Below are positions 1 to 18,600 of a DNA stretch of 39,982 nt, one piece after another; within the stretch, counting starts at the first letter, position 1; every line of letters starts with the position of its first letter. The translations under genes and the position numbers were made by a program. Source of the DNA: Promethearchaeia archaeon (GTDB lineage: Archaea > Asgardarchaeota > Lokiarchaeia > Sigyniarchaeales > SOKP01); contig JAHQWP010000070.1 in the NCBI GenBank assembly GCA_029856235.1, positions 1 through 39,982 on the forward strand. Direction: 5' to 3'. The notes under the pieces were generated by a model. It ran no database searches, was not told the DNA's origin, and saw only the letters and a program-made list of their open reading frames with translations.

Positions 1-910
1 GTTCTAAATCCGATAGCGCTTTTTTCATCTTATTAAGATACTCTATGCTTTCTTCAAAGCGATCCCTATCTCTGATGTCAATAAAATAGAATAGTAAATC
101 TGCTTCGAATAGATAAATTTGAGCTTTATTAAGATACTTTTCATGATACTTCTTTTGTCCCCCTAAATCCCATAAAAAAATGGTTGCACCTAACGCTTCT
201 ATTGAACTCACATCTGCACCTCTGGTTGGGCTTAGTCCAATCAACTTTGAGAATTTTCTGTCAACTGAAAATAAAAAACTTGTTTTTCCACTATTATCCA
301 AACCAGCAAACAAAATTTTCATTTTTCTTTGGGAGGATATCGGTGTGGAAGGAGTTTTTTCAATAGTAACAATTTTTTTTAAAAGTCCATTAAAATCGGA
401 CTCAACCTGTTCTTGTGGGGGAAATTCAGTAATTATTTTTTTATCAAATTCAGAAAAAAAATCTATTACAATGTTTTTAAGCCTATTTATGTTATTATAG
501 AGAAAACTTCTCCTTTTCTCGTCTATCAAAATACAGAAAGCGCTCGCTGTTGGGATTTCAGTTGATTCCATATCGATAAAATGAAAGAAAGTAAGAGATG
601 TTAGTTGAAGATCTGGAAAGGGAATAATTCCAAAGTATTGGTATTTTTTCAAAACCTCAATTTCTTTGTTATATACAGCTCCGTCCCCTATTAAAAGAGA
701 TATATTTTTAATAGCTATCTGGATATAATCCCTCAAAGAGATAGTAAGTATTTTGTTAGCATTATCCTCTGTTTTTTTAATTTCTAATTCCTCCATCTCT
801 AAAGGAGGAGGAAACATGTAAATTGGTTGAGGCCCTAGTGTATCGAAAGCGCAAAAGACTAGTCCTTTGATGATTGAAGATTCAATTAATTTATTGAATT
901 TTTTTTTCAA
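1..910 (-). CDS. Longin-like domain + Arf/Rag-like small GTPase (3' end outside window)
   Basis: Reading the minus strand from a TTG at 910 gives 303 open codons running off the window. No in-frame ATG lies between the upstream stop and residue 32, so TTG is the best start; the shared domain begins around residue 12. Residues 12-140 match the N-terminal domain of the GTPases at 6524 and 21671: 'LGPQPI' at 25-30, 'LLIGD' at 72-76 and 'GIIPFPD' at 94-100. The GTPase follows with G1 GLDNSGKT (193-200), a G2 threonine at 219 in SPTRG, and G3 WDLGGQ (237-242). G4, G5 and any C-terminal domain lie beyond base 1. By analogy with 6524-7936 a roadblock/longin tail is expected, but it cannot be seen. 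The gene is divergent from the AIR-synthase-like gene at 993. Confidence 0.85.
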   Translation of the reverse strand, partial: MKKKFNKLIESSIIKGLVFCAFDTLGPQPIYMFPPPLEMEELEIKKTEDNANKILTISLRDYIQIAIKNISLLIGDGAVYNKEIEVLKKYQYFGIIPFPDLQLTSLTFFHFIDMESTEIPTASAFCILIDEKRRSFLYNNINRLKNIVIDFFSEFDKKIITEFPPQEQVESDFNGLLKKIVTIEKTPSTPISSQRKMKILFAGLDNSGKTSFLFSVDRKFSKLIGLSPTRGADVSSIEALGATIFLWDLGGQKKYHEKYLNKAQIYLFEADLLFYFIDIRDRDRFEESIEYLNKMKKALSDLE

Positions 911-964
911 TAGTCTGGAGTTTCTTGTATTTTATTTTCTAATAATAAAAGGTAGGAAATTTAA

Positions 965-973
965 TTATATATA
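965..973 (+). promoter_or_regulatory. TATA box of the 993 gene, likely leaderless transcript
   Basis: The T/A alternation 'ttatatata' is centred about 24 bases before the ATG at 993. That is the usual archaeal TATA-to-start-site distance, so transcription probably begins at or next to the start codon. No Shine-Dalgarno sequence is visible before this ATG, which fits a leaderless mRNA. Confidence 0.5.
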
Positions 974-992
974 GCTTTATTCTAGAACATTA

Positions 993-1949
993 ATGCTAGA
1001 AAAAATTGCAGACTACATACGAACCAACAAAAATATTCTTGAAAAAAAAGAGCTTAATCCTATTGTCCGTTTCATTAGCACAAACTCTTTTAAGAGTCCT
1101 CGTATCTTTTCCGACGTAGGACAAGATTCTGCTGCCATTGATAACAAGAGTGAAATGTACACCTTGGTTACAACGGATAGGATTAAAACAAGTTACATTG
1201 AAAACTATCCTTTTGGTGCAGGATTTAGTTCTATCTTAGTTGGAGTTGATGATATTTTTGCTTGTGGCGGGACACCATTAGCTGCAACCATCATTATTTC
1301 CTTTAAAGAACAAACCATCGGCCAAAAAATGATTGAAGGAATTTGTAACGGTTCAAACAAGTTTAAAGTTCCGATAATTAGAGGCCACACTAATATGAAA
1401 GATTATTACGAGTTAAGCTCCACTTTAGTCGGTGAAATAAAAAAGATAGATTATATTCCAGCAGACAACGCCCGAGAAAACGATAATATTATTTTAGCTG
1501 TAGATTTTGATGGCCAAATAGGGAAAGCTAGTAATCTACATTGGGACACTGTTACGCACAAATCTTCCGAAGTCGTATTAAACAAAAGGTTAGCTATGAA
1601 CATCATCGCTAAAGAACATCTTGTTAACTCTTCAAAAGACGTGTCAAACGGAGGGATTTTCGGTACAATTTTACAGCTTTTAAAATATTCTAATGTCGGA
1701 GCAGATATCAATGTTGAAAAGATCGTTGTTCCTCCTAAACTAGTAGAAAAGGGTTATCAACTAGAAACCTATGTTCAAATGTTTTTAACCACTTCTTATA
1801 TTTTAACTGCACCAGAAGAAACATCTCAGGAAGTAATAAAGACTTTCAACAAGCATGACATGTCAGCCGCTGTTATTGGAAGGATTAGAAATGAATCGGA
1901 TTTAAATATTACTGATAGTAAAGATTCAATGAAAGTTTTAGAATTTTGA
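993..1949 (+). CDS. AIR synthase-related protein (PurM/HypE/SelD/ThiL superfamily)
   Basis: The 318-residue product has the PurM-superfamily layout. A first nucleotide-binding strand carries 'GQDSAAI' (43-49), in place of the usual GDDAA. 'VGVDDIFACGGTPLA' (83-97) matches the conserved 'vNDi.a.Ga.Pl' segment. 'RGHTN' (130-134) corresponds to the GGHT loop, and 'DVSNGG' (216-221) to the second-domain D-x-S-x-GG motif. These enzymes bind ATP and make phosphorylated or acyl-phosphate intermediates. The overall form recalls the 'methanogenesis marker 2'/sll0787-type branch, whose substrates are unknown, more than ThiL or SelD; no Cys/Sec active site typical of SelD is seen. The SLOG-family gene begins 32 bases downstream on the same strand, so the two are probably cotranscribed. 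The superfamily call is firm and the exact function is not. Confidence 0.75.
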   Translation: MLEKIADYIRTNKNILEKKELNPIVRFISTNSFKSPRIFSDVGQDSAAIDNKSEMYTLVTTDRIKTSYIENYPFGAGFSSILVGVDDIFACGGTPLAATIIISFKEQTIGQKMIEGICNGSNKFKVPIIRGHTNMKDYYELSSTLVGEIKKIDYIPADNARENDNIILAVDFDGQIGKASNLHWDTVTHKSSEVVLNKRLAMNIIAKEHLVNSSKDVSNGGIFGTILQLLKYSNVGADINVEKIVVPPKLVEKGYQLETYVQMFLTTSYILTAPEETSQEVIKTFNKHDMSAAVIGRIRNESDLNITDSKDSMKVLEF

Positions 1950-1981
1950 TTATAAAAAGGACAAAAAAAAGTTGATATTTT

Positions 1982-2542
1982 ATGAATTTTGATTTTAAAA
2001 GAAACTTTAAGGGAACTATTTCTATTATTGGGACGAGCGAAATCGATTCTGCAACAAAAAAGCTAACAATTGAATTAGGACGATTATTAGCTAAAAATCA
2101 TTTCGCAATTGCTTGTGGAGGTCTATTTGGTGTTATGGAAGCCGTATGTAAAGGCGCGAAACAAGAAGGTGGCTTTACAATTGGAATAATACCTTTTGAA
2201 GATAAGAGTAAAGCGAACAAGTATATAGATGTTGTGATTCCTGTTCCTTTTTCTCAAGCTCGAAACGTTATTGTCGTGCTAAGTGGTGATGCATGTATTG
2301 CCATAGAAGGAAAAGCAGGAACGTTATCTGAGATGTGTTTTGCTTGGATATATGGAAAACCAATCATTGCACTAACTGGAGAAATCAATGGATGGTCATC
2401 GAAGATGGCAGGAACAAAAATTGACGATAGGAGGAATGACATAATTTATGGTGCTAAATCGGCTCAAGAAGCGGTTGAAAAACTAAATGAAATATTTAAA
2501 TCTAACCCTAATGTTGCATACGATATGCCTACAGAGTTCTAA
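1982..2542 (+). CDS. SLOG-superfamily protein (TIGR00725 / LOG-DprA related)
   Basis: The 186-residue product has a Rossmann-like SLOG fold. 'GGLFGVME' (46-53) corresponds to the GG-x-x-G-x-M nucleotide-binding turn, followed by 'GIIPFED' and 'SQARN' (91-95). 'GKAGTLSE' (110-117) takes the place of the PGGxGTxxE signature of LOG cytokinin phosphoribohydrolases and the GGGxGTLSE of TIGR00725 proteins. The conserved E117 remains, but the first glycines of the loop are replaced by 'EGKA'. Members bind nucleotides or nucleotide-like ligands; the substrate of this branch is not established. It starts 32 bases after the AIR-synthase-like gene, which suggests a joint metabolic or cofactor role. Its length is normal for the family. 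Confidence 0.75.
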   Translation: MNFDFKRNFKGTISIIGTSEIDSATKKLTIELGRLLAKNHFAIACGGLFGVMEAVCKGAKQEGGFTIGIIPFEDKSKANKYIDVVIPVPFSQARNVIVVLSGDACIAIEGKAGTLSEMCFAWIYGKPIIALTGEINGWSSKMAGTKIDDRRNDIIYGAKSAQEAVEKLNEIFKSNPNVAYDMPTEF

Positions 2543-2649
2543 AAACTACAAAGCTTATTAATGGCTAATTAAGTAAACTAATTTTTGGGGGAATATCCCT
2601 TTTAAAATTAAAAAATAGCTAAAGGTTTTAATATTTAAGTTTGAGATAA

Positions 2650-2658
2650 TTTTATAAG
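2650..2658 (+). promoter_or_regulatory. TATA-like element upstream of the Rag-like GTPase
   Basis: 'ttttataag' lies about 75 bases before the TTG start at 2730 in an otherwise AT-rich gap. With a start site about 25 bases downstream it would leave a leader of roughly 45-50 bases. That leader contains 'aaggtg' about ten bases before the TTG, a partial match to the archaeal Shine-Dalgarno sequence. Confidence 0.35.
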
Positions 2659-2729
2659 AATGAGTGCAATATTATCTTACATAAGAATATATACAAAAAT
2701 TACATTGTCTATTTCAAGGTGTAACTATT

Positions 2730-3698
2730 TTGGCAATTCAATTTTTAACTAAGGATGAGAAAGATAAGAAAAAGGTTGTCTCCGCATCGAAACTACTCTT
2801 TACAGGCTTAGACAATGCGGGTAAAACGACAATCATTTATGGTATCCAAAGAGAATTCTCTAAAATAGCTTTCCTAAAACCAACTCGTGGAGCCCAACGA
2901 AGAATTTTCGAGTTCATGGGAAGAGAAATTGCAGAATGGGATCTAGGAGGACAAATCTCTTATCGAATTTCGTATTTGAAAAACCCAGGTAAATACTTCG
3001 ATGACACAGAAATAGCTATTTACGTAATAGATATTCAGAATCGAGTAAGGTTACCTGAAGCAATAAGCTATTTAAAAGATGTTGTAGAGCAATTCAAGAA
3101 ACTCGAGATCGCTCCGCCTATTTACATATTTTTGCATAAATACGATCCTGCTTTAAGGCGAAATGCACTAAATGAAATGAAAAATCTCGAAGTAGAAATA
3201 AAAGAAAAAGTAAAGCGCAATGTAGAATATAAACAAATCTTTTATTATAATACAAGCATCTACGATCTCCCATCAATTATAAAAGCAATGTCAGAAATAT
3301 TACTAAGCTTATATTCAAAGTCAGAATTAATTGAAAAAACAATCATCGAATTTGGTAAGAAAACGTACTCTGATGGAATTGTTTTGCTTGATGACAATTC
3401 TTTAATCATCGGAAGCTATTATAAGGATGATGAAACTAAGAATTTACTATCTGCAAGCACTCCTTATTTTCTAACCCTTAATGATAGCTTTGTTTTTACT
3501 GAAGTCCAACCCAGTCGCAAGGAAGAAGATAATCACATGGTTGTCCAAAGATTTGGAAGAAACTTCTTGTTTAAGCAACTGTCTTTAAAAGAAGGTATTA
3601 ACCCTTATTATATTCTCATGCTCAAACAAGACACTCACATTAATAAAGAAGATATTGCTTGTTTTTCTAACTTACTAAAAGAGATACTTTATAGCTAA
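2730..3698 (+). CDS. Rag/Gtr-like small GTPase with C-terminal roadblock/longin-like domain
   Basis: The 322-residue product starts at TTG, with AAGGTG upstream. The GTPase core has G1 GLDNAGKT (26-33), a G2 threonine at 52 in KPTRG, G3 WDLGGQ (70-75), G4 'HKYD' (136-139) and G5 'TSI' (175-177). A histidine in place of the first G4 asparagine is typical of Rag/Gtr GTPases, which carry 'HKxD'. The stretch around G5, 'FYYNTSIYD', also closely resembles the RagC segment as I remember it. Residues 190-322 form an alpha/beta domain ('SDGIVLLDDNSLIIGSY' near 204) in the place where Rag proteins carry a roadblock/longin domain used for dimerisation. There is no lipidation motif and no N-terminal longin domain. 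A zinc-ribbon/roadblock gene lies next downstream. The architecture is read directly; a Rag-type role is inferred. Confidence 0.82.
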   Translation: MAIQFLTKDEKDKKKVVSASKLLFTGLDNAGKTTIIYGIQREFSKIAFLKPTRGAQRRIFEFMGREIAEWDLGGQISYRISYLKNPGKYFDDTEIAIYVIDIQNRVRLPEAISYLKDVVEQFKKLEIAPPIYIFLHKYDPALRRNALNEMKNLEVEIKEKVKRNVEYKQIFYYNTSIYDLPSIIKAMSEILLSLYSKSELIEKTIIEFGKKTYSDGIVLLDDNSLIIGSYYKDDETKNLLSASTPYFLTLNDSFVFTEVQPSRKEEDNHMVVQRFGRNFLFKQLSLKEGINPYYILMLKQDTHINKEDIACFSNLLKEILYS

Positions 3699-3766
3699 CT
3701 CTTTTATTTTTTATATTTGTTTTTGTCAATATTAATAAAATTGTATTTTTTTACTAGTATTATAGT

Positions 3767-3780
3767 TAAAGGTTTATAAA
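3767..3780 (+). promoter_or_regulatory. BRE/TATA promoter of the roadblock gene
   Basis: 'taaagg' followed directly by 'tttataaa' is a good BRE plus TATA pair, centred about 50 bases before the ATG at 3825. The predicted start site near 3800 leaves a leader of about 25 bases. The gene therefore has its own promoter even though the upstream GTPase is on the same strand. Confidence 0.5.
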
Positions 3781-3824
3781 AGTAATATTTCTGATTTCAA
3801 TAACTGACAGAAGAGATAAGTAAA

Positions 3825-4841
3825 ATGATTATTTGTTCCAACTGTGGGACTACAAACAACGAAACGGATGGTCGCATCTGTAGAAAATGTGGCGCGCTAC
3901 TTCCCAGTTCCAATAAACCCCCAAGGATAAAAATCTCTCCCAAAAAAGCCGTAAAACCACAATTGGATGAAAAGAGAGCGCCACCTGAAAAAGAGAAACA
4001 AGTAGCTACTCCTCAAAGAAAAGAACCGAAAAAAAAACCTGCCGCTAAACCAAAAATTTTAGATCTTCACGAAATTCCTAAACCTGAAAATAAAGTCAAG
4101 GAAGGGTTATTAGAGGATGAAATAGAAAGCGAGCTTAGCGACCCTGATGATGAAAACAATAAGGAATTTTTGCAAGAGATCACACCACAACCTTTTAGAG
4201 GTTCAATTATTGTAGATAAAAGCGTTTATGGTAGTTCTAAGCAAGTTAAGGTCTCAACGGGTTCAGAATCTCGATCTTCTAAAAGTACCTCTACCTCATC
4301 CCGCCAAATAGAATCTACTCTCTTAAAACAGAAGCAATTAGAAGATGATATGACAAAGGTACTTTCTTTTCTTTCAAAAAAAATTACTGTAAAACCACTG
4401 GAAACGATTCAAAAAGAAGTAAAGATCAAAGAAAAACCTGTAAAAGTCATACCCCCTTCAAGTATGAGTGAGATTCTAAAAGATCTTCTGAAATTGGATT
4501 TACATATCGAAGCCTCTGCAATTATTAAGAAAGATGGTACAATCCTCGCCTCTGCGATTAGTTCGAGGATATCAGATTCCCTCTTTGCTACGATTGGTCA
4601 GAATTTATCAATGATTGGCAACGATATAATTGAAGGTTTAAGTGCTGGAACACTAATGAATATATCTATTAGAGGATCTCATGGAGTATTAGATCTTGCA
4701 CCTATTGGCTCAAAAGAGACTTTAGGAAATGATATGATTTTAATAATTCTTTCAAACCCTAAAGTGAAAAGTGGAATAATTCATTTTGCTGTATCTATTG
4801 TTAAAAAACAAGTAACACAATACTTAGGATTGTCAAAATAG
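3825..4841 (+). CDS. Zinc-ribbon, charged linker and roadblock/LC7 domain protein
   Basis: The 338-residue product begins with a four-cysteine zinc ribbon (C4, C7, C19, C22). A long K/P/E-rich and then S/T-rich stretch follows (about 28-165) and is probably disordered. The C-terminal part (about 213-338) has the roadblock/LC7 pattern: an amphipathic helix, 'EASAIIKKDGTILAS', a central helix, 'GTLMNISIRGSHGVLDLAPI', then 'DMILIILSNPKVKSGIIHFA' and a final helix. Roadblock proteins dimerise and act as platforms or regulators for small GTPases, as with MglB and the Ragulator LAMTOR subunits. The gene follows the Rag-like GTPase but has its own promoter. A role as its scaffold is inferred from fold and position. 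Confidence 0.82.
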   Translation: MIICSNCGTTNNETDGRICRKCGALLPSSNKPPRIKISPKKAVKPQLDEKRAPPEKEKQVATPQRKEPKKKPAAKPKILDLHEIPKPENKVKEGLLEDEIESELSDPDDENNKEFLQEITPQPFRGSIIVDKSVYGSSKQVKVSTGSESRSSKSTSTSSRQIESTLLKQKQLEDDMTKVLSFLSKKITVKPLETIQKEVKIKEKPVKVIPPSSMSEILKDLLKLDLHIEASAIIKKDGTILASAISSRISDSLFATIGQNLSMIGNDIIEGLSAGTLMNISIRGSHGVLDLAPIGSKETLGNDMILIILSNPKVKSGIIHFAVSIVKKQVTQYLGLSK

Positions 4842-4858
4842 GATACATCGCTTGGATT

Positions 4859-5656
4859 TTAGAGTAATTGTTTCTGAATAATTAGTTTTGAGACTTTTTC
4901 TGTTTTAAAATATTGCATGTTAATCATTAACTCTTGCAAAAACGAATTTAGATTATTTATTCCCACTAAAGGGACAGAATTATCATTAATTTTAATCCAA
5001 TTAGTTTCTAATGTCACCATAATTGGAATTAGAGTAAAGGGTAGTCTTTTACGGATTTTAAAGTTCATTCCTAACAGTTTTTGTATTAAATCTGAAAGCG
5101 TTTCAGGATTTTTTTTTAAAGCGACGACTCTTTGATACTGTAAATTAGCGGCTTTATTCATCGCGCCGTAAGAGTCTTTCCTTTTCCATTGTTTAGCATC
5201 TATAATGAGGATATGATTTTGGTAAATCCCTATAACATCAATTTCGTATCGTTTTTGAGATGTTTCGTATTTCAAATTCGATCTATCTGAGAACCTAAAA
5301 TTTTTAATTGTTCTATAATTGTTTTGAGATAAAATTTCTTGAATTAAAGCTTCAAATCCGTCGTAATTTAATAAAAGAGATAACTGGTTAACATCTAACT
5401 CTAAAAATTGTAGACCCCTAGTGATAAAAATGATTTTATCTATTACAATGTAATTAATGTAATTTCCCTTCTGAATTGAAATAAAATCGAACCTTTCCAG
5501 AAACTCTCGGAGTTCTAAATCGTTAAATTTTTTGAAAAATGTTATATCTGATATCTCAAACCATAACTCGGTTACTTCAGAATCTCCTTCTTTTAGAAGA
5601 TTGTAGATTTCTAAGAAAAATTGTTTTAGCGATTGAATAGAAAAGAAATCAGACAT
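4859..5656 (-). CDS. PD-(D/E)XK restriction-endonuclease-like protein
   Basis: The 265-residue product has the archaeal restriction-endonuclease-like core in its second half. 'GFEALIQEILSQNNY' (100-114) supplies the usual N-terminal helix with E102. 'YEIDVIG' supplies the metal-binding D140, and 'ILIIDAKQWKR' gives D153-x-K155 followed by the typical Q/W. The first 95 residues are helical and not recognised. It resembles Mrr-like or Holliday-junction-nuclease-like proteins that act on DNA, but no methylase or partner is nearby, so restriction is not implied. It ends 18 bases from the end of the convergent roadblock gene and is read in the same direction as the ATP-cone gene upstream of it. 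Confidence 0.75.
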   Translation of the reverse strand: MSDFFSIQSLKQFFLEIYNLLKEGDSEVTELWFEISDITFFKKFNDLELREFLERFDFISIQKGNYINYIVIDKIIFITRGLQFLELDVNQLSLLLNYDGFEALIQEILSQNNYRTIKNFRFSDRSNLKYETSQKRYEIDVIGIYQNHILIIDAKQWKRKDSYGAMNKAANLQYQRVVALKKNPETLSDLIQKLLGMNFKIRKRLPFTLIPIMVTLETNWIKINDNSVPLVGINNLNSFLQELMINMQYFKTEKVSKLIIQKQLL

Positions 5657-5725: not shown

Positions 5726-6151
5726 TCATTTAGAATGGTTGGAATCCTCAATTAATTTTTTAACTTCTTTAAATTCATATATAACCCCTGCGTAAATGAA
5801 TTCTTTCAATTCGTCCAGATCGTGACAGTCTTCGATTTTCTTTTCCAAATCTTTATAGGGAAATCCGATTCTTGTATTTTTTAAACGCGCAATCTCAAAA
5901 CCAAATTTAGAGAGTGTATAACTAACTAACTCCCTTATAAGAGGTGCAGTTAAAATTTTAAGGTTAGATGATGTTATAAAACGAAAAACATCAAGCGTGA
6001 CTTTTTCCGCATCTTGCTCAGATAGTTCCGTCTCATTTCGTAATGTGGTATAAATTCTGTTAGGATCAAATTTGTTTTTTTTCACGATCCCCGATTTTTT
6101 ATCTTTAAAGAGCACTTCTGGTAATGATTCATAAATTTTTTCTTCAAACAT
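5726..6151 (-). CDS. Stand-alone ATP-cone domain protein
   Basis: Read from the ATG at 6151, the product has 141 residues. An in-frame ATG at 6220 would add 23 hydrophobic, AT-biased residues that do not fit the domain, so the shorter form is preferred. The pattern is that of an ATP-cone: 'GIVKKNKFDPNRIYTTL', 'LSEQDAEKVTLDVFRFI', 'LTAPLIRELVSYTL', then 'FEIARLKNTRIGFP'. ATP-cones bind ATP/dATP allosterically in ribonucleotide reductases and in the NrdR repressor. Here no reductase domain and no NrdR zinc ribbon is attached. About 35 charged residues follow the domain. It may be a regulatory subunit acting in trans. Neighbouring genes give no clear link to nucleotide reduction. Confidence 0.7.
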   Translation of the reverse strand: MFEEKIYESLPEVLFKDKKSGIVKKNKFDPNRIYTTLRNETELSEQDAEKVTLDVFRFITSSNLKILTAPLIRELVSYTLSKFGFEIARLKNTRIGFPYKDLEKKIEDCHDLDELKEFIYAGVIYEFKEVKKLIEDSNHSK

Positions 6152-6523
6152 TGTAATACAAGATGAGTTTGTCCATTTGATGATTATAGTTAAGAAAGTA
6201 ATTATTCGCAATAAATACAATTATTAATTTTTTATTAATTCACTTTAAATATTAAGATATTAGTACTCGAAGAATTTCCATGTTTACTTCAAGGATTACT
6301 AGCAAACCAAGATTACTTTATCAAATTCATTAGATTTGCTTATTTTTTTAAAAAAATAAAGATTTAATTAAAAATTCTTTCTTAATATATTAAAATAATA
6401 TAATATTTTAAATCGGTTTAAAAGAACTAGGAAAAGTATAATTATATCTTTTGATTTAAAAGTAGCGAATCTTTGCTTTCTTTCTTTTAAATCTTTACGA
6501 AAATCAATGAATTTCATAGAATT
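6152..6523. other. AT-rich divergent intergenic region
   Basis: These 372 bases separate the divergent ATP-cone gene and the longin-GTPase gene. No convincing open frame or RNA gene is visible. The stretch is very AT-rich, with runs of A and T around 6340-6400. A possible TATA element for the plus-strand gene lies near 6438-6446 ('taattatat'). The promoters of both genes presumably lie here. Confidence 0.5.
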
Positions 6524-7936
6524 ATGTCAAAACCAATGAATAACGTCATCAAATCAGTCGTTTTAAGTTTGTTTAACGATGATGGACCAACACCAATAAT
6601 TTATTGGCCAGAAACGATGGATGAGTCTTCAAGGCTTTTAATTGCTATGAAAACAATCTCTCTATTGATGGGCGATACAGTATATCAAAATGGCACTTCT
6701 ACTGAGGATGTAAATTATTTTGGAATCCTCCCTTTTCCTGATTTAAAATTAAACGGGTTAACTTACTTTTTTTTAATATTAGATCCATCAGCTCGTGGAA
6801 ATGCTAAAGCTGCTACTATAACTGTTCTAATTGACGAGGATGATCGCGTTTTTTTCTATGAAAACATGAAATACCTCCGGGTTATAATTGATAGTGCCGC
6901 GTCAAAGGTTCAAATAGCTAAGACTTCTGAGGAAAATGAAACTATAATGGGAGAATTAAAAGATGAATTATTCGAATTTACAAGCGAAATAAAAGACCCT
7001 TTTTCGCTATTTCGACAAATTAAAATTCTTATGACTGGTTTAGATCGCGCGGGAAAAACGAGTTTTCTCCACGCTGTTAAGAAGCAGTACTCTGAAATCA
7101 TTAAAACTCTTCCTACAAAGGGAGTAGCGAGAAGCGATGAAAAGATTTTTGAGGAACAAAATTCTACAATATCTATATGGGATCTTGGTGGCCAAAAAAG
7201 TTACCGTGAAAAATTCCTTGAGCAGCGAAAAATATACTTATACAACGTAGATTTACTTTTTTTCTTTATAGATGTCCAAGATTTTGCAAGAATAAACGAG
7301 TCTGTTGAGTTGTTTACAAAAGTCATTGATTCACTAGAAGAACTAGAAGAATATCCCCCAATCGTTATTTGTCTAAATAAGTGTGATCCAGATATAAAAA
7401 ATTCAGACGATATAAGATCTAATATCAATACAATAATTGAACAAATTCATGAAATCTCGGAACCATTTTTCATAAAAATTTTTGAAACGTCTATATTTGA
7501 TGGATTTTCGTTAATATCTGCTTATTCCTACGGATTATCACAATTATCTCCTAACAGAAAATTATTTGAAAATCAATTGAAACATTTTGCGAAGAAAATA
7601 AACTCAGATGCTATACTTTTACTTAACGAAAATGGCATAATATTGTCAAATTTCTCTGAATCCGGCATTTCTGAAAAGGTATTTGAAATATCAGCACCTC
7701 ACTTTCAAACCTTATATAAGACTTTTAAAGAATTTAAACTGCTCAAACAGGATTTTCTAGTTTCTTCTGGAATAACGGACGAATCAAAAAAAATAATATT
7801 TAAAAGGATATTCGTTGAAAAATATAACCTCTACCTATTACTTTTTATGGAAAAAGACCTAAATCTAGATAAAATTGAAAAAAATTTACCTAAATTATCA
7901 AAAAATCTTAAAGATTTAATTCAAACCTATATTTAG
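6524..7936 (+). CDS. Three-domain longin-like / Arf-Rag-like GTPase / roadblock-like protein
   Basis: The 470-residue product has three parts. Residues 9-123 form a longin-like domain with 'DGPTPIIYWPE' (20-30), 'AMKTISLLMGD' (41-51) and 'GILPFPDLKLNGL' (67-79). After a linker the GTPase has G1 GLDRAGKT (172-179), a G2 threonine at 198, G3 WDLGGQ (219-224), G4 NKCD (265-268) and G5 'ETSIFD' (301-306). Residues 328-470 form a Rag-type C-terminal domain ('SDAILLLNENGIILSN'). The G1 form is Arf-like, while the G5 region and the domain order resemble RagC. The same N-terminal domain occurs at 1-910 and at 21671-22720. It probably acts at a membrane or scaffold as a nucleotide switch; the partner is unknown. 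ATG at 6524 is used, and another in-frame ATG follows four codons later. Confidence 0.85.
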   Translation: MSKPMNNVIKSVVLSLFNDDGPTPIIYWPETMDESSRLLIAMKTISLLMGDTVYQNGTSTEDVNYFGILPFPDLKLNGLTYFFLILDPSARGNAKAATITVLIDEDDRVFFYENMKYLRVIIDSAASKVQIAKTSEENETIMGELKDELFEFTSEIKDPFSLFRQIKILMTGLDRAGKTSFLHAVKKQYSEIIKTLPTKGVARSDEKIFEEQNSTISIWDLGGQKSYREKFLEQRKIYLYNVDLLFFFIDVQDFARINESVELFTKVIDSLEELEEYPPIVICLNKCDPDIKNSDDIRSNINTIIEQIHEISEPFFIKIFETSIFDGFSLISAYSYGLSQLSPNRKLFENQLKHFAKKINSDAILLLNENGIILSNFSESGISEKVFEISAPHFQTLYKTFKEFKLLKQDFLVSSGITDESKKIIFKRIFVEKYNLYLLLFMEKDLNLDKIEKNLPKLSKNLKDLIQTYI

Positions 7937-7972: not shown

Positions 7973-9193
7973 TTAATTAAAATTTTCGTAGGCTTTTCTC
8001 TTTTTTTTATTAGATCTAACTAATAGACCTACTCCAATAATAACAGCTCCTGCTATAGATCCAATCACGATTAAGACGATTATTTCCGTTAATTTTGAGT
8101 CCGAATCTAACACCGTTATTTTCATGTTGTAATTAAAAGTATAAGCGTCGTGATCGTATGCTACTGGTGATGGAATATGAGGGAACTCCGAAGCATAATT
8201 ATATCCCGGTGATGCTCCAGGGATAAAAAACCAGGCTCCTATATTTAAATTAAACCTAAAAACATCTATTTTTTTGTAGGAACTTGCAACTTGAGGTTCA
8301 CAAGCAATCCATCCGATGTCCGGTATGTAGTATTCGACCCAAGCGTGACCTGGAACATTTGTGCTTCCCGCTGAAGAAGCGGATAAATCAAAAACTTTTC
8401 CAACTGGAGGAATATTATTATTCTCGGTTTGAAGCAAGATCCCAGTCACCTTTCTAGCTGGGATTCCCTGAATTCGCAATAACGTAATCATTAAGGAAGA
8501 ATATTCGCTACAGTCCCCTCTTTTGTTATCAAAAGCCCATGAGGCTCCTTGCTCTTCAGCTGGAAGAGTACCATCGTAGGCCAAGTAATCTGAAACATTC
8601 TGACAAATCTTCATTGCCATCTCGAGGGGATTATCGCTAGGATTTACGATTCGATTTGACGCAGCAATTAAATCGGTATCATTTATATCGTAATAAGTTT
8701 CGGAATTATTACAATACAAATCGAATATTTCATCTGATGTATTGTAAGTACCTATGTCTGAATCTTGAATGTTCCCAAACTCGACTTCGTTGAGCTTTAT
8801 GATATACTTTTGATTTAAAGTAATTGTCTCAGATGTGCTTAAAGAAGCGTTAAACAAATCGTAGGTGTTATTAAATTTATCTAATTTGCCTACTATAAGA
8901 GAGTCGTATCCGGTAATGGAATTATATAAGAGTTCAGTTTCTTGATAAGGGGCACAATACTGGGTAAGAGTAGAATTAGGTTGGCGATCGTTAAAACGAG
9001 CAACTTTAAAATAATAATTTTGAGGAGATAACCTAGTATGGGTAAATGTATAATTTATTTCTACTTGATATGTAACGCTTTGATTAACTTGATAATTAGA
9101 CACCCCATCAACGGCATTAAGGTTAATTTCGCTTCTAACACTCGTTGGAAAGAGAAATATTATTAAGAGAAATGCGACTTTATAAGCTTTCAT
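7973..9193 (-). CDS. Secreted, membrane-anchored transglutaminase-like protein
   Basis: The 406-residue product starts with a signal sequence (hydrophobic 7-16, likely cleavage around 20). A beta-rich N-terminal region rich in N-x-S/T sites follows (about 24-185), then a transglutaminase-like cysteine-protease core. The nucleophile is C228 in 'RGDCSEYSSL' and the histidine is H283 in 'PGHAWVEYY'. The third catalytic position is probably E299 in 'WIACEPQ', where aspartate is commoner. A C-terminal helix (about 389-412 region, ending before 'RSNKKKRKAY') anchors it with a basic cytosolic tail. Archaeal members are thought to cut or crosslink surface proteins, but the substrate is unknown. The gene converges with the longin-GTPase gene. 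Confidence 0.82.
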   Translation of the reverse strand: MKAYKVAFLLIIFLFPTSVRSEINLNAVDGVSNYQVNQSVTYQVEINYTFTHTRLSPQNYYFKVARFNDRQPNSTLTQYCAPYQETELLYNSITGYDSLIVGKLDKFNNTYDLFNASLSTSETITLNQKYIIKLNEVEFGNIQDSDIGTYNTSDEIFDLYCNNSETYYDINDTDLIAASNRIVNPSDNPLEMAMKICQNVSDYLAYDGTLPAEEQGASWAFDNKRGDCSEYSSLMITLLRIQGIPARKVTGILLQTENNNIPPVGKVFDLSASSAGSTNVPGHAWVEYYIPDIGWIACEPQVASSYKKIDVFRFNLNIGAWFFIPGASPGYNYASEFPHIPSPVAYDHDAYTFNYNMKITVLDSDSKLTEIIVLIVIGSIAGAVIIGVGLLVRSNKKKRKAYENFN

Positions 9194-9332: not shown

Positions 9333-9988
9333 ATGGGTAAGGTACTATTATCTACAAGATTTTTCTAATTGATAGCGAAAATGGAATTTCTCTTTTAGAG
9401 GCTACTTTTAGATCTTTAAAAGAAGATAATCAGAGTACAAGAGTTATTCCTGGTTTCTTCAAAGAAATAAATCAGATAATTGATAAAATACAAGATGCAA
9501 TGGTTAAAGGCAATAATAAGGAAGACATGACTAGGGTTGTAGAGTCTGAAAATTCAACCATTATCATTATCTATCATCCCCCTTCAAGAATCTTGTTTTG
9601 CTCCATTTCAGACCCAGATGACGATGTAGATAAAACAATTGAAGTGATTCATAAAATCTCGAGTCGTTTTTGGAAAAAGCATCAATCAGATATAAAAATA
9701 TTTCGAACTACATCAGAGAAATCTCGTTTTCAAACAATTATAGCCGATATCGAGAACTTGTGTCAAGGAGGTAAAATAGCAGAAGTTTTTCCGAAATTAT
9801 TGGTGGTAAAGAAGGTATTAGAAAAGATAATGTCTATGGGAATGATAAACGAAGAAGATTTCCAAGTTGCTATACGATGTACAGGAGACGCTTCTCCATT
9901 AAGAATTTCACGAATGCTAGCTAAACCTCGCAATGACATAAATATTGTGTTAAAAAAACTAGAAGAACTCGATATTGTAAATTTTTAA
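9333..9988 (+). CDS. Longin-like + winged-helix protein with apparent N-terminal frameshift
   Basis: An intact frame starting at ATG 9500 gives 162 residues, but the same frame is open back to 9341 and reads 'GTIIYKIFLIDSENGISLLE', a typical longin first strand and turn. ATG 9333, with a Shine-Dalgarno sequence, is one frame off. Adding one A in 'ggtaaggt' near 9339 would give 'MGKGTIIYK' and a 218-residue protein. The restored protein has a longin-like fold (1-140: 'VIPGFFKEINQIIDK', 'RILFCSISDPDDD') and a C-terminal winged-helix-like part ('LRISRMLAKPRNDINIVLKKLEEL'). It resembles the cytosolic end of the large receptor at 14425-18600. Either the sequence lacks one base or the gene is damaged. 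A GTPase-regulator role is inferred. Confidence 0.65.
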
Positions 9989-10081: not shown

Positions 10082-10090
10082 TCTTTGATT

Positions 10091-10695
10091 ATGGAAGATA
10101 GTAAAAATATCGTAGCGATGGCAATATCCCCGGCAAAAGATGCTCATCATCGCAATGGGAAAGGATTTTCTTTGTCGGAAATAAAAGAAGCTGGCAAAAC
10201 CGTGGAATTACTAAGAGAGTTAAATCTTAGCATCGATTTTTTCAGAAAATCTAAACACGAAGCTAATGTTGAAGAGCTAAAAAAGCTAAAACCAGCTAGT
10301 AAGAAGTAAAAAAAAAGAAGCCTTACGAGTTTAAAGAAAAGAAAAGAACTCCTTTCAAACCAAAAGTAGAAAAACCGAAAAAGAAACCCGTTAAAGCAAA
10401 AGTAGCCACGCAGAAGCCTAAAGCAGTTAAAAAGGCACCACCTCCTAAGAAGGAAAAAGTTAAAAAAGAACCAAAACCAGCAAAGATAGAACTTTCTGAA
10501 ACTGAAACGACGAAGTTGACTTCGTTATCCGGATTAGGTCCTGCGACTGCAAAGAAATTTGAAGAACTTGGAGTAAGCTGCGTTGAAGAGCTTGTTAACG
10601 AGGATTCAACTGAATTAGCGGCGTTAATTAAGGGAGTATCCGAAGAACGAATAGCAAATTGGATCAATGAATGCAAAGAATTGCTAAATAAATAA
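10091..10695 (+). CDS. Ribosomal protein L13e (eL13)-like with HhH C-terminal extension, apparent frameshift
   Basis: The first frame (10091-10309) encodes an L13e core: 'GKGFSLSEIKEAGKTVELL', then 'LNLSIDFFRKSKHEANVEELKKL'. This matches the eL13 pattern 'GFtl.ElkeAG...a..igi.vD.rRrnks.e.l..Nv..Lk'. It stops at TAA 10307, directly before a run of nine A. From about 10309 another frame is open to TAA 10693. It encodes a Lys/Pro-rich linker and a helix-hairpin-helix domain ('LSGLGPATAKKFEELGVSCVEELV'). One extra base near 10307 would join both into a protein of about 201 residues. eL13 is a large-subunit protein of eukaryotes and some archaea; the HhH tail is unusual and may bind nucleic acid. 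A homopolymer sequencing error is the likeliest explanation, but a true mutation or frameshifting is possible. Confidence 0.7.
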
Positions 10696-13752: not shown

Positions 13753-13768
13753 AGAAGGAGAATAGTAA

Positions 13769-14386
13769 TTATCTTTCTGAATTAAATATCGTTAAAATAA
13801 AATTTTGCACTGAAGGCACAATTGCTCCTTTTCTGACGCCTTCGTTCCATTTTTTAATCAAAACTGTGTTTTTAGCTAAATCTTGAAGCACCCTCTGACC
13901 CATCTGGGTCCAAATATCATTATCGATAACGGGTGCTTCTTCTCCTATCCCTCCGCAATATTGAAGTCCTTTTTCAGTGTAATTTACTTTAATCGCGTTT
14001 TCATCTGATTTTTCTGTGCTAACAAGAAGTTTGAATGTAAAAGGAAAAGTCCTGCAAAAGTTAGGTCGAAAATTGTAAATTGAGCATCTATTTTTGATGT
14101 TGTTATAAAAGTAACATTGACCGTCGGATTTTTTCTTAAGCCCAGTAAATGCTAAACCTCTTTCTGTTTCAATAGGAGGAACTACCATTCGTTTAATTTC
14201 TTTAATTGTTGGTTTTTTATCGAACACATAGAACCCTAAAATTTCAATAATTTCATCTTGGGTTAGATTTAAGCCATCTTTAATGCGGAGAATATCTGAA
14301 TAAGTAGCGTTAACGAGCGTGTTTAAATCAGTACAACATTTTCCACAATGTACGCATTCAAACCTTAAATCATTTGGAGTATCCAT
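13769..14386 (-). CDS. YkgJ-family cysteine-cluster protein (zinc/iron-chelating domain)
   Basis: The 205-residue product starts with 'CVHCGKCC' (C11, C14, C17, C18). It later has C91 ('GQCYFY'), C101 ('NRCSIYNFRP') and C111 ('NFCRTFPF'), the pattern of the YkgJ/PF03692 family: C-x2-C-x2-CC ... C-x(n)-C-x2-Y-x2-RP-x2-CR-x-FP. These proteins bind zinc or an Fe-S cluster, and their biochemical role is mostly unknown. The last 60 residues are a less conserved helical extension. It ends 17 bases from the end of the convergent helical-protein gene and follows the large receptor gene on the minus strand, from which it is separated by only 38 bases. Confidence 0.82.
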   Translation of the reverse strand: MDTPNDLRFECVHCGKCCTDLNTLVNATYSDILRIKDGLNLTQDEIIEILGFYVFDKKPTIKEIKRMVVPPIETERGLAFTGLKKKSDGQCYFYNNIKNRCSIYNFRPNFCRTFPFTFKLLVSTEKSDENAIKVNYTEKGLQYCGGIGEEAPVIDNDIWTQMGQRVLQDLAKNTVLIKKWNEGVRKGAIVPSVQNFILTIFNSER

Positions 14387-14424
14387 AATTAAATTAAAAA
14401 AAAAAATAAAAATTTTCTATTATT

Positions 14425-17400
14425 TTATTTTGTTGATGGTATAATAACTTGCTTCTTTATCAAAGTCTCTATACCATCTATAACAACATTTTGATTTTTT
14501 TCGTGAATAAGTTCAAATATAGTATCCAAGTGAAATTCATTTTTGCTTTTAGCAATCGAATAGATAACGTTCAAAATCCTGATTTCCATGGAATTTAATT
14601 CGCTTTCTTTTCTCATTTTGGCTATGAATTCTGCATTATTTATCGTAAATGCTTCTTTATAGGATAATTCTATATATTTATTTATAATTGGGGGAAATTT
14701 TTCTTCGAATTCATGAATAGCTCCATCCCAATTTCCGATCAGTTCAGATAATTCCAACATTGCTCCCAAAGAGAGATCTGAAATCTGATTTTTCATTCTT
14801 TCTGAAGCTCTTTCGGTAAGAATAAAGATAATACGTAAATCCTGCCGGTCACAAATCAAACAATAGAAATATTTAAAATCAAGCTCTAGGATCGTTCGCG
14901 TTCCATCTTCTTCATCCACCTCAACTACTTCTCCACCTTCTCCTCGTTTCCCTACCATTTCTTGGCCAACAGTTATAATAGCTTGAATAAATCCTGCAAA
15001 AATCTCCTTTTTATGTTTCTCCAAGATAGAATAACTTTTAGTATAGAGTGGTATTCCACTGTCTTTATGAATCGCTACAATTGCTTGAATGTTTTCGATA
15101 TCTTTAAACCTTTGGGTTCGAGATAATAATTCTGCTTCTCTTTTTCTTCTTCTTGGTAAAATTACATAAGATCTCAAGCTGAGTACGCCTAGAACACCAA
15201 TTATTACAGCTGAGATTACGACAATAATCCATATGATAAATATGGGAAATTGAGGTTCCCCAATAACTAAAAGAAATGAAGCTTGTGTTGTTTTATATAC
15301 TGTTCCCTCTTTTGAGATGATTAAATTGAATATAAAGTTGCCCTGTAAATTTTCTGGGAGAGATACTGTTAGTTGATATATACCTGGAGATATTTCCTCC
15401 AATTCACCAACTCCATAAGTCCACTCGTATAATACCGATGCATTTTCGATAGGGAGACTAGTTTCAATATCTAACAATTCGATTTGAAGTACTAAAGAAC
15501 CTCCTATCTCCGCTTTTATGGTTGGGTTTGAGTCCTCGTGATCAACTATATCGACTTCAAACTCAATTCGATCGATCAAGATTTCGAATCCAAAAGTCTG
15601 CGTTCTATAGTTAGGATGTTCAAACCTTAAATAGATGAAATTAATTCCAGAAGAAAAGAAATCAGGAGAGCATTCAATAGATGTGTTATACCAGAAATTG
15701 AAGAATTCAGTCAGGTTTTTTTCGTATGATTCGCTAATCCAGGTAAAATTTCCTCCGGAGATATAAACCTCGTCTATGTTCGACATCGCTTTGGCAGAGA
15801 TATTTAGAATATCAAAAAAGGTGACTTCGTGCAGAGAATTATCTTGAATATTAAGCGTATTGAGATACACTGAAAGATTTACCGATTGCTCAATAATTTG
15901 AAACTGGTATACGTAATATTGAGGTTCATACTCAGCTGCCGAAAAACTAAAATTAATTTGGTAAATACCAATATCATCAATATATAACGTACTAAATTCA
16001 ATATCATACACTCCATTACCAAGATTCTCAATCGAATAATGAGATGGATCACTTATACTAATGTTAACTGTTGCTCCATCAATACCGTTGCTACTAAAAT
16101 CAGTAAACTTAAACTTGATAGTACTATTTGCGTGTAATTCTATATTATATTCTGATTCAAGTCTTTGTAAATTAGTTTCTTCTCCTAGGTTTATTTTTAG
16201 GGTGAGATTACTTTCTATGAATCCTAGTTTCGACGAACCTATTAAAATCTCGTACAATCCTTTCGAAGCTAAATCAGTAGTATCTAAAATTGTCTCATAC
16301 ACACCAATAGCAGCTTCAGTAAAATTGAGAGTAGATCCTCCCGTCCAATTATAAAAAACCGTTGCCTCTGAAATTGATAAGTTGTTTTCTGGATCAGTTA
16401 GAATAACTCTTATAGGGATGATGTCTCCTACAAAACCCTCAGTTATTAGGTCAATTTTTGCATCGTCAGGTTTTAACAATTTTATTTGACTCTTGTGATT
16501 TACAATGAAGTTTGATTTAACACCACCTAACGCAGTTCCATTAGTCCAGAATAAAGTATAGTCAAATTGACCCCCTGTAGTATTTAGCGCAGAGAATGTT
16601 ACTTCTGAAAAGAATACTGTTCCATTTGATAAGGGTGAATTCACTTCTGAATACCACTGATTTCCATCGGGATCAAATATCGTTAAATTTACTTCTGTTA
16701 ACTCAATATTTATAGGAATTCGACCACTGTAGTTTACTTGAGTTTTAATCCGTGTTGATTCACCAGTAACAAAACTAGTGTGTGTCCATTCACCTTGTTT
16801 TAATAATTTAGTATTTGATTGACTTAAAAAATTAGGCGATGTTGCTTTAAAAGTCCACCAACCAGGAAAAATTGCATAAGATCTATTAATTTTAAGTAAT
16901 ATATCTCCAACCTTGCCATCTTCGAAGGGTATTTCTTGTAGAGTAGGATCCAATACTGATATGATTTCCCAATCGTTTGGTTTATTGATATCAAATTCAA
17001 TATCAGCATATTGATTAGGGATATATAAATTATGATAATATTTCCAATATATAGTGCCATTTTCTAATATATCGTATAAAACACCTTCAGTGGTTTGTTG
17101 ATTAATCTTTGATTTCACATTGTGATATCCATAAACAGTCGTATTCAAATCAAATTCGAGGTGAGGTGAAGTAGTATTTATTGTTAATGTAATAGGATCC
17201 GTATCCCAAATTTGGTTAATTGTTTGATTTGATGACCCCCAATCTGAACAATCTTGTAAGGTCTGTGAATTAATAGTTAAATCAACTCCAGGTTGAGTGG
17301 CGTTTGTTTTAGTTGTTACAACCAAAGAAATATTATCAAACCATACAATATTTGTAAAACCATCTTCAATCGCCCATCCACTTGTATAAGTGTAGCCCGA

Positions 17401-18600
17401 ACCAATTATAAATCCTACTGAAATATTGAAATTTTTTAAATCTCCCTTAAAGATATTCGTCGTATTATCCCACGAATCTGTATATAATTTTCCAGATGAA
17501 AGCCATTTCTGTTTACCCAATTCAGAAATATCTAACATTCCCTTACTAAAGATTTTTTCATTATTTATCTTAACATAGATGTAGTGATCATTCGTAGGCA
17601 ATGCATATTGGCAATAATAGTCGAAACTTAAATACGCTTCAACAAATGGACCACTATCAATAGTAAATTCTTGGAATAATTCGGAATAAGCACCAGTATC
17701 AAAATCAACTTCAAGTTCATTGACATATGCTCCATATAAAGCAACATACATAGCTGAAGCGTTATCTACTTCTCCAGGACCGTAATCGTTCCAACAATCA
17801 ATACCTACATCATAATTAAATTGCCAACTGGCAGAATTTATATCAATATTCGAGCTTGAATTCATAAATTCATAATAATCAATATCATAACCATAATAAT
17901 GATCTTTGTTATCAGAATCGTAGTCAAGTTTTATTGTATCACCAATAATCCAAGGAGAGTAGAAATTATATATATTTGATGAAGTACTATTAATATAATA
18001 AGAACTTGCTTCGTCGGAATCAGTTATGTAAACCCAATCATAACCATATTCAAACTGTAATCTAGAAAAATGAACTCGAATATACTCTGCTCCTGATACG
18101 GTAATCTCATCTTGAGGAGAAAGCCAGTCAGGATTGTGATTACCATAAGGATGTGGTGTACCATAGATATCCATTGTATCATATACTCGATAAATAATAG
18201 GTGATTCAAAACCAGAATTATTTATCCAATTTCTTTTATCTACTATATTTATTAAGTTATTTTCCACCTTATTTGCTTTCCAATCGTGCCCAGAATCAAG
18301 ATAATAATTTAAAGTAAGTTCTTCTTGATTAGTTAAAGAAACTTCTTGATCATACTTATATAACTTTCCATAATCGGTTACATTTAAAGCATTTTCATTA
18401 CCTTCAAATAAAACGGGATCAACATCTGCAACTGAGGGTATTTGAGGGGTGTCATTGAAATCTCTGTTTATTTCTGTACTATTATTGGAATTTGGAATGA
18501 GAAAACTACTCGAAAGAAATATTGCTGATAAAATTATAATACTTACAAATCCTAAAACTGACTCTTTTTTTAAAAGTAATTTATTTGAAACCATTTTCAT
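14425..18600 (-). CDS. Giant single-pass receptor: CUB-like and Ig-like exterior, cytosolic longin-like domain and winged helix
   Basis: The 1391-residue product has a signal or anchor helix at about 16-36. Residues 150-260 look CUB-like ('YIRVHFSRLQFEYGYDWVYI', 'IIGDTIKLDYDSDN'). A jelly-roll-like stretch follows to about 430, then several Ig-like beta segments to about 1110 with many N-x-S/T sites. A transmembrane helix lies at about 1119-1142, followed by 'RRRKRE'. The inside part (about 1165-1300) reads 'AIVAIHKDSGIPLYTKSYS', 'IFAGFIQAIITVGQEMVG' and 'FYCLICDRQDLRIIFILTE', a longin/roadblock-type pattern. It ends with a winged-helix-like segment (1335-1391). This suggests sensing or adhesion outside coupled to a small-GTPase platform inside. 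Topology is read directly; the ligand and GTPase partner are inferred. Confidence 0.78.
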   Translation of the reverse strand: MKMVSNKLLLKKESVLGFVSIIILSAIFLSSSFLIPNSNNSTEINRDFNDTPQIPSVADVDPVLFEGNENALNVTDYGKLYKYDQEVSLTNQEELTLNYYLDSGHDWKANKVENNLINIVDKRNWINNSGFESPIIYRVYDTMDIYGTPHPYGNHNPDWLSPQDEITVSGAEYIRVHFSRLQFEYGYDWVYITDSDEASSYYINSTSSNIYNFYSPWIIGDTIKLDYDSDNKDHYYGYDIDYYEFMNSSSNIDINSASWQFNYDVGIDCWNDYGPGEVDNASAMYVALYGAYVNELEVDFDTGAYSELFQEFTIDSGPFVEAYLSFDYYCQYALPTNDHYIYVKINNEKIFSKGMLDISELGKQKWLSSGKLYTDSWDNTTNIFKGDLKNFNISVGFIIGSGYTYTSGWAIEDGFTNIVWFDNISLVVTTKTNATQPGVDLTINSQTLQDCSDWGSSNQTINQIWDTDPITLTINTTSPHLEFDLNTTVYGYHNVKSKINQQTTEGVLYDILENGTIYWKYYHNLYIPNQYADIEFDINKPNDWEIISVLDPTLQEIPFEDGKVGDILLKINRSYAIFPGWWTFKATSPNFLSQSNTKLLKQGEWTHTSFVTGESTRIKTQVNYSGRIPINIELTEVNLTIFDPDGNQWYSEVNSPLSNGTVFFSEVTFSALNTTGGQFDYTLFWTNGTALGGVKSNFIVNHKSQIKLLKPDDAKIDLITEGFVGDIIPIRVILTDPENNLSISEATVFYNWTGGSTLNFTEAAIGVYETILDTTDLASKGLYEILIGSSKLGFIESNLTLKINLGEETNLQRLESEYNIELHANSTIKFKFTDFSSNGIDGATVNISISDPSHYSIENLGNGVYDIEFSTLYIDDIGIYQINFSFSAAEYEPQYYVYQFQIIEQSVNLSVYLNTLNIQDNSLHEVTFFDILNISAKAMSNIDEVYISGGNFTWISESYEKNLTEFFNFWYNTSIECSPDFFSSGINFIYLRFEHPNYRTQTFGFEILIDRIEFEVDIVDHEDSNPTIKAEIGGSLVLQIELLDIETSLPIENASVLYEWTYGVGELEEISPGIYQLTVSLPENLQGNFIFNLIISKEGTVYKTTQASFLLVIGEPQFPIFIIWIIVVISAVIIGVLGVLSLRSYVILPRRRKREAELLSRTQRFKDIENIQAIVAIHKDSGIPLYTKSYSILEKHKKEIFAGFIQAIITVGQEMVGKRGEGGEVVEVDEEDGTRTILELDFKYFYCLICDRQDLRIIFILTERASERMKNQISDLSLGAMLELSELIGNWDGAIHEFEEKFPPIINKYIELSYKEAFTINNAEFIAKMRKESELNSMEIRILNVIYSIAKSKNEFHLDTIFELIHEKNQNVVIDGIETLIKKQVIIPSTK

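Follow-up and report, generated by a model that had tools for sequence, protein, structure and literature searches.

Rag-Type GTPases of the Contig

The contig JAHQWP010000070.1 of a Promethearchaeia archaeon (assembly GCA_029856235.1), which with its 39,982 bases constitutes the entire window analysed here and belongs to a 3.75-Mb draft genome, encodes three Rag-type GTPases (A, B and D), a roadblock protein (Rbl) next to B and, further along, a fourth GTPase (E). The coordinates are collected in Table 1. The initial annotation of this DNA had described three GTPase genes as fully or partly recognisable as Arf/Rag type, and the Pfam Gtr1_RagA profile assigned all of them to the Rag type (E = 2.1e-9 for the fragment of A, 2.9e-24 for B and 1e-24 for D). 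The scores of B and D (86.2 and 87.7 bits, respectively, with a cut-off of 22) identify a Rag/Gtr G domain in both proteins. The fragment of A also matched Pfam Arf (E = 4.9e-17); the intact relatives of A are about 500 amino acids long, with an added C-terminal domain, and the full orthologue L102 matched Gtr1_RagA with E = 3.9e-20. The same profile was detected at E ≤ 0.1 in all 36 members of the A/D family.

The family profile of B aligned at positions 8–314 of 316 with PDB entry 8yl2 (E = 3.4e-110), a deposit named "GTP-binding protein", for which no paper was found and which is a near full-length relative of B. The next matches, Arl3, RagA and Gtr1, were at a similar level to each other, between 1e-17 and 1e-14 (RagA 6wj2, 1.3e-17). 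For the D family, matches were obtained with 8yl2, 8zla, RagA (5.7e-20), Gtr1 (1.4e-17) and Arf1 (9.2e-16). The alignments with RagA and Gtr1 extended into the C-terminal domain, which marks it as a roadblock-like dimerisation domain, with the Pfam roadblock family itself being listed for one of the 36 A/D proteins.

Profile–profile comparison with hhalign revealed that A, D and E share a homologous N-terminal module, the pairs scoring 99.7% (A–D), 99.4% (E–D) and 96.3%, and that the C-terminal modules of B and D are likewise homologous (97.8%). Control comparisons with unrelated neighbours reached at most 6.7%, and the C-terminal module of B compared with its own G domain gave 49.4% over 31 columns. 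With E = 0.0032, 132 of the 152 positions in the profile of the N-terminal module aligned with PDB entry 8yqg, a deposit named "Longin domain".

A midpoint-rooted tree of 71 G domains, comprising the A, B, D and E families and 27 other GTPase loci of this genome, contained a Rag-type clade of 47 rows (support 99/94), including eleven from this genome. A and D were sisters (99/98) and E was placed in the other half of the tree. Several long branches were flagged, and the position of B among the Rag-type rows was not resolved. In genomes G034 and G031, B is present as a tandem duplicate upstream of Rbl (L073:13895-15927 and L080:887-2806).

The clustering of these genes was confronted with a chance model of uniform placement in which contig ends were ignored. 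Plain clustering of small GTPases was rejected as evidence, as 4 of 70 Arf-like genes fell within 22.7 kb in 40% of placements (p = 0.40). Three of 11 Rag-type GTPases fell within 7.9 kb in 0.2% of placements (p = 0.002), a value to be read with the reservation that A and D are sister paralogues and so are not independent placements.

The Folliculin-like Longin and Its Arginine Loop

The N-terminal part of D matched the Pfam Folliculin profile (E = 0.003, 17.8 bits), and together with the arginine loop kept in this longin the match strengthens the analogy with folliculin drawn in the initial annotation. Folliculin was detected at E ≤ 0.1 in 28 of the 36 A/D-family proteins (best E = 1.1e-5), and no other longin family was present among 25 of the 27 Pfam families listed for A/D members. 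Across 56 genomes, the profile gave a match at E ≤ 0.01 in 42 and exceeded its cut-off in 11, not all of the latter in D-sized proteins; in the genome studied here, D was the only match at E ≤ 0.01, and none of 14 control genomes was matched. Many of the matching frames are D genes by position (e.g., in G033, G025, G024 and G028), others are frames of other lengths, of about 170–435 residues, and the matching orthologues are to be regarded as non-independent observations.

Residues 153–201 of human FLCN were taken, with their numbering, from PDB 6ulg, where Arg164 is the R of KDSLARG. The alignment of the D-longin profile with this segment paired Arg164 with Arg91 of D, and 6 of 5000 shuffles scored as high. 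By this alignment, D possesses the equivalent of the catalytic Arg164. A phmmer search of PDB with one D longin returned no match. The loop of D mostly reads DxxARG, with ExxARG or SRG in a few proteins, and the arginine with the following glycine was present in 44 of 44 D sequences, a count that leaves out eight shorter D frames (fragments below 440 amino acids). The arginine was also found in 12 of 12 order-level D proteins and, in the same column, in 11 of 11 E-type sequences. In A, the column of D Arg91 contained arginine in 0 of 19 sequences and in 0 of 4 at the order level. As read from the sequence, the arginine of D would lie between two strands and before a helix. No DENN family was found among the Pfam matches of the A/D members, the rest of D being made up of the G domain and the Rag C-terminal domain; thus, D is not a member of Folliculin.

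According to the accessible part of the structural work on folliculin (PMC7063858), Arg164 of FLCN is reported to be catalytic toward RagC, and the longins of FLCN and FNIP2 touch the G domains of RagA and RagC. In the accessible text of PMC8213707, Arg147 of SMCR8 was observed as an arginine finger, and a preprint, likewise available in part (PMC12803157), places a predicted finger of monomeric DENN GTPase-activating proteins (GAPs) between longin strands 4 and 5.

The Roadblock Protein Rbl

The window copy of Rbl matched Pfam Robl_LC7 below the cut-off (E = 0.014), the family was detected in 11 of 20 Rbl orthologues (best E = 4.5e-5), and a match with the PDB roadblock 7f8m (E = 8.4e-5) identified the roadblock domain. 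The roadblock protein annotated at this position was therefore confirmed, by way of its orthologues and 7f8m, as a zinc ribbon joined to a roadblock domain. Matches of Rbl to PDB "Cake" entries were discarded as repeats of a single 15-residue match. No sequence match was detected with hhalign between the roadblock domain of Rbl and the Rag C-terminal domains. The likeness to Ragulator that had been suggested for the region was not upheld, as the block contains a single roadblock protein and no LAMTOR1 family appeared among the Pfam matches to the 30 window open reading frames scanned (the search for roadblock genes did not extend to the remainder of the genome).

Conservation of the Neighbourhood

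To follow the neighbourhood of D, a scan with the D protein was performed, giving 51 loci, all from Candidatus Lokiarchaeota or Lokiarchaeia. For each gene, the count was restricted to loci in which it was detected or whose contig extends far enough to include it. Beside D, Rbl was present in 47/47 assessable loci, the NERD-domain gene in 48/48, B in 40/41 and the putative longin gene (9347–9988) in 45/46, followed by the helical gene (41/42), the methyltransferase (38/39), the CxxC protein (31/33), SLOG (32/39), the AIR-synthase-like gene (24/34), A (21/33) and the large membrane protein referred to below as the receptor (21/30). The value for A is a lower bound since each locus was cut off 10 kb from D, a distance that A exceeds in, e.g., G009 and G034. 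At least 42 of 58 genomes carry D, at least 35 carry A and at least 31 carry both (with G040 assigned to D). B and Rbl were neighbours among the mapped genes, on the same strand, in 40 of the 40 loci showing both, the gap between the ends of their tblastn matches being 101–302 nucleotides in 39 loci and 2,409 nucleotides in one.

Conservation within the genus was rejected as evidence because the right half of the window is also kept there (G007 and G002), and the comparison at the level of the order was used. G046 and G050 retain 11 and 10, respectively, of the 17 genes of the first 20 kb of the window, D included. In G042, such genes are kept in two groups (5 and 4 matches) about 80 kb apart, with A lying together with B and away from D. 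In G040, B, Rbl and D form a tandem on one strand with gaps of 119 and 53 nucleotides. When G007 was used as a reference, the genes on both sides of the block had no counterpart in G046 save for paralogous GTPase matches, the G046 contig extending no more than about 7 kb past the block at either end.

Six control stretches were taken from larger contigs by a non-random choice; the anchors of five were searched and the sixth (L153) was left out, and the anchor of L155 was dropped before the count for want of a clear order-level orthologue. Several control contigs are short, of 5–11 kb (L159, L162, L163, L166 and L171). At the order level, the control anchors kept 0, 0 and 0 neighbours (ValRS), 2, 3 and 2 (clamp loader), 3, 2 and 0 (RpiA) and 0 and 0 (L152), the zeros of L152 saying little because its anchor is only about 31% identical at this level. 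The two order-level relatives kept 9–10 neighbours of D versus 0–3 for the control anchors. The comparison of gene order across Lokiarchaeia proposed in the initial annotation thus shows that the neighbourhood of A, B, Rbl and D is conserved in the family and partly to the order level, above control regions; it has been held together over a long evolutionary time, and the refuting outcome named there, a lack of conserved clustering, did not occur.

Other Genes of the Window

The first 19 kb of the window contain, in order, A, the AIR-synthase-like gene, SLOG, B, Rbl, the NERD-domain gene, the ATP-cone-like gene, D, the transglutaminase-like gene and the longin/winged-helix gene, followed by a helical/HhH gene, a gene of unknown function, a methyltransferase (minus strand), another unknown gene, a CxxCxxCC protein (minus) and the membrane protein (minus).

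Table 1. Positions of the genes and features discussed, numbered along the 39,982-base window.
Feature	Position	Strand	Description
A	2-910	minus	Rag-type GTPase with N-terminal longin; truncated at the contig end
A, domains	longin ~356-910; G domain ~2-337	minus	
AIR-synthase-like	993-1949	plus	conserved-block neighbour
SLOG/TIGR00725	1982-2542	plus	conserved-block neighbour
B	2730-3698	plus	Rag-type GTPase with C-terminal Rag domain, without longin
Rbl	3825-4841	plus	zinc ribbon ~3825-3899, variable linker, roadblock domain ~4437-4838
NERD-domain gene	4859-5656	minus	conserved-block neighbour
ATP-cone-like gene (weak)	5726-6220	minus	
D	6524-7936	plus	Folliculin-like longin ~6524-6973, G domain ~6995-7513, C-terminal Rag domain ~7526-7933
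D, Arg91 codon	6794-6796	plus	aligns with catalytic Arg164 of human Folliculin
Transglutaminase-like	7973-9193	minus	Transglut_core E 1.4e-23; strongly hydrophobic segment at residue 371
Putative longin-like/winged-helix gene	9347-9988	plus	ATT start from orthologue alignment
Large membrane protein (receptor)	14425-18600	minus	conserved C-terminal domain; family-level neighbourhood only
E	21671-22720	plus	Rab-type GTPase carrying the longin module with RG loop (Arg81); family-level linkage only

The closest family of the AIR-synthase-like protein is "methanogenesis marker 2" (221 bits, under the cut-off of 365). In many of the more distant loci, the ATP-cone-like gene, at about 38–51% identity, has the opposite strand with respect to D, as if a paralogue had taken its place there. 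The transglutaminase-like protein is probably membrane-anchored. The helical/HhH gene (10085–10695), with an L13e-like N-terminus, is a single frame of 203 amino acids in G007 and is divided into two frames here by a break near 10303, which may be due to a sequencing error or decay. Upstream of A, relatives carry an archaeosortase H gene (G007:C91:14131-15207, i.e., L062; the copy L107:45-1118 matched NF041736 with 317.9 bits, cut-off 200), found beside A also in the order-level genomes G046, G050 and G042; the window contig ends before that position. In the right half of the window, two adjoining and visibly similar hydrophobic proteins of 240 amino acids (24521–26056), without a Pfam match, are probably a tandem duplicate.

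For the longin/winged-helix gene, the start at 9333 was rejected since it lies in a different frame, and the gene was reassigned to 9347–9988. Many orthologues have methionine at the position of the ATT codon (9347–9349), others continue upstream with leucine, valine or isoleucine; the first in-frame ATG, GTG or TTG of the window copy is at 9500, and several loci show only a frame of 162 amino acids under the usual starts. The winged-helix family TrmB was matched in 15 of 21 orthologues (best E = 0.0011), Clat_adaptor_s in one of 21, the window copy itself (E = 0.0061), and no PDB entry was matched below E = 0.3. The coordinates given in the annotation were corrected accordingly, and its longin part received weak support.

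The protein encoded at 14425–18600 was described as a transmembrane receptor with a cytosolic longin-like domain, perhaps serving for surface sensing. Hydropathy segments at residues 17 and 1122, the latter followed by about 250 residues that we read as cytosolic, agree with a large membrane protein. Its C-terminal domain is well conserved and weakly resembles the 9347–9988 protein (hhalign 10.9%, E = 0.0028), but it matched no longin family. None of the receptor, PfkB, Ogg or E was detected next to the block in G046 or G042, and the contig of G050 ends too early for this comparison. E was confirmed as a longin–Rab-like GTPase, a Rab/Ras-type protein (Pfam Ras, E = 2.8e-48) with an N-terminal extension homologous to the D longin; in G020 and G030, it is placed on the A side instead. 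Beyond A, the genomes G007, G002, G021, G030 and G020 carry E-like longin–Rab genes with 44–59% identity to E (L081:3809-4819, L083:15216-16229, L092:12486-13490, L085 and L089), some clusters thus being flanked by longin–Rab genes. The receptor and E are at most family-level accessories of the block, and neither sensing by the receptor nor E was retained as a part of the set.

A Putative Rag Module with Its Own Longins

We tentatively propose, at somewhat less than even confidence, that the block encodes a conserved module with an A:D unit, in which the longin of D is an arginine-finger GAP and that of A is non-catalytic, and with B–Rbl as a third switch. A and D, an old duplicate pair, would most likely dimerise by way of their C-terminal Rag domains, like Gtr1 and Gtr2, and such pairing would bring the two N-terminal longins together. 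Arg91 of the D longin may then reach into the active site of a Rag domain with bound GTP, either in cis or in trans on A or B, and accelerate hydrolysis. The longin of A, lacking the arginine, would complete the platform as the non-catalytic half, like FNIP to FLCN. B and the adjacent Rbl would constitute the third switch, probably a Rag–roadblock pair, on which the A:D unit could act. The genes, their domain homologies, the conserved neighbourhood and the arginine that D has, and A lacks in that column, are observed; the pairing, the GAP chemistry, its substrate and any nutrient or membrane link are what we infer here.

Several observations weigh against this proposal. The Folliculin match of D is under the Pfam cut-off (17.8 vs. 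23.3 bits) and spans about 60 residues, the two strongest matches of the profile are frames of 379 and 322 amino acids (G047 and G052), not D-sized, the D longin itself matches human FLCN weakly (4.9 bits), and FLCN 153–201 is not matched by the longin profiles of A and E. Arginine occurs elsewhere in the loop in 9 of 19 A proteins, and three of the four order-level A proteins have it two columns on, which leaves a loss of function in A unproven. The available text of PMC7063858 describes an Arg164 that faces away from RagC in the solved FLCN–Rag complex, and according to the part of PMC8213707 accessible to us, doubts have been raised as to whether Rags employ such fingers.

The neighbourhood also provides arguments against the module. 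A and D are not an operon; in G042, about 80 kb separate them. Four genomes of family f4 showed neither B nor Rbl nor any clear A next to D, with weak matches of 40–41 bits in G039 and G041 and with the contigs of G043 and G045 ending less than 2 kb from D on one side. Rbl was not found in G046, G050 and G042 and is present in G040 and G048. The conserved neighbours include enzymes without a known link to Rag proteins. At the family level (G028), the controls kept 8 (clamp loader), 8 (RpiA) and 0 (L152) genes versus 13 besides D; as the controls keep neighbours too, it is the order-level conservation that stands out.

The longins of A and D could instead be platforms of the exchange-factor or scaffold type (TRAPP, Mon1–Ccz1 and Ragulator) or autoinhibitory lids, with an RG loop that is structural and not catalytic. 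This explanation, which we consider rather unlikely, would account for the presence of the same module on the Rab-type E and for the longin kept by A without the arginine, but the RG loop present in all the D proteins counted coincides with the catalytic loop of FLCN. That the neighbourhood is kept for its enzymes, its replication position or its regulation, with the Rag genes adjacent through old duplication and not working together, appears distinctly unlikely. The AIR-synthase-like, SLOG, NERD, methyltransferase and transglutaminase genes indeed stay in place as well, A and D are sisters and the strands alternate; however, B and Rbl are adjacent in every locus showing both, B, Rbl and D form a tandem in G040, and where the block splits, in G042, A stays with B. 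A single Ragulator-like signalling system of the receptor, the longin protein and all four GTPases is highly improbable, as the frequency of the receptor beside D, its conserved C-terminal domain and the faint resemblance of that domain to the 9347–9988 protein are outweighed by the order-level relatives G046 and G042, in which neither the receptor nor E was found beside the block, the lack of an identified Ragulator-type scaffold in the window scans and the failure of the domain to match any longin family.

Of the linked ancestral-type system suggested initially, there remains the conserved neighbourhood of A, B, Rbl and D, without an identified Ragulator and without support for the receptor or E as members. 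The Folliculin-like longin of D with its equivalent arginine means that Folliculin-type control of Rag proteins may predate eukaryotes. A bolder version of the proposed module, unlikely in our estimate, would make A:D a self-contained Rag switch with built-on FLCN:FNIP-like longins, with FLCN-type regulation predating eukaryotes, Folliculin possibly descending from a longin carried by a Rag protein, and the "GTPase with its own GAP" being, by way of E, a general archaeal design.

Comparison with Known Systems

Rag proteins sense nutrients in human cells, and Rag GTPases, together with their longin GAPs, share in controlling the timing of eukaryotic cell growth. With a Folliculin-type arginine in one of its partners, a prokaryotic Rag pair would be a small, expressible system for studying whether Rag–GAP chemistry is pre-eukaryotic. 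The resemblance to RagA/C and Gtr1/Gtr2 covers the G domain and a portion of the C-terminal domain, which match RagA and Gtr1; the proteins differ in the N-terminal longins on A and D, in that the pairing is proposed here, and in that there is no evidence of TOR or a lysosome. With the Rag GAP Folliculin–FNIP (FLCN:FNIP2), the system shares a Folliculin-like longin with an RG loop in D and a related longin without this loop in A. It differs in that no DENN was matched, the longin is fused to the GTPase itself and the GAP role is putative. In common with Ragulator (LAMTOR2–5) and archaeal roadblock proteins, Rbl has a roadblock domain and its gene directly follows that of a Rag-type GTPase, but Rbl is built of a zinc ribbon and one roadblock domain, and no LAMTOR1-like scaffold accompanies it in the window scans.

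The layout of longin, GTPase and roadblock is already published. Longins and roadblocks fused to GTPases were reported for Lokiarchaeum in the accessible part of PMC4917890, and in Candidatus Prometheoarchaeum syntrophicum MK-D1 (Tran et al. 2024, PMC10933270, available to us in part), Rag-like GTPases are likewise joined to a longin, to a roadblock domain or lie between both, with a Rag-like heterodimer predicted to form through roadblock domains. MK-D1 differs in that a single operon with a Rag-like pair was reported for it and, beyond this, no general linkage of GTPase genes to roadblock or longin genes; a conserved neighbourhood of three Rag genes and a Folliculin-type arginine in the fused longin are not mentioned in the same text. 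In the Asgard and Lokiarchaeal literature, as accessible mostly outside subscription papers, we found no description of either feature; in the available part of PMC9481161, Asgard and folliculin both occur in titles of the reference list.

Two features thus look new, namely the conserved neighbourhood of three Rag genes and the FLCN-type arginine, whose distribution is asymmetric in that the sister A lacks it at this position. Matching individual Asgard GTPases to their regulators by genome layout is a stated difficulty (PMC10933270, section 13, in the part accessible), for which the conserved neighbourhood described here supplies concrete candidate pairs, B–Rbl and A–D.

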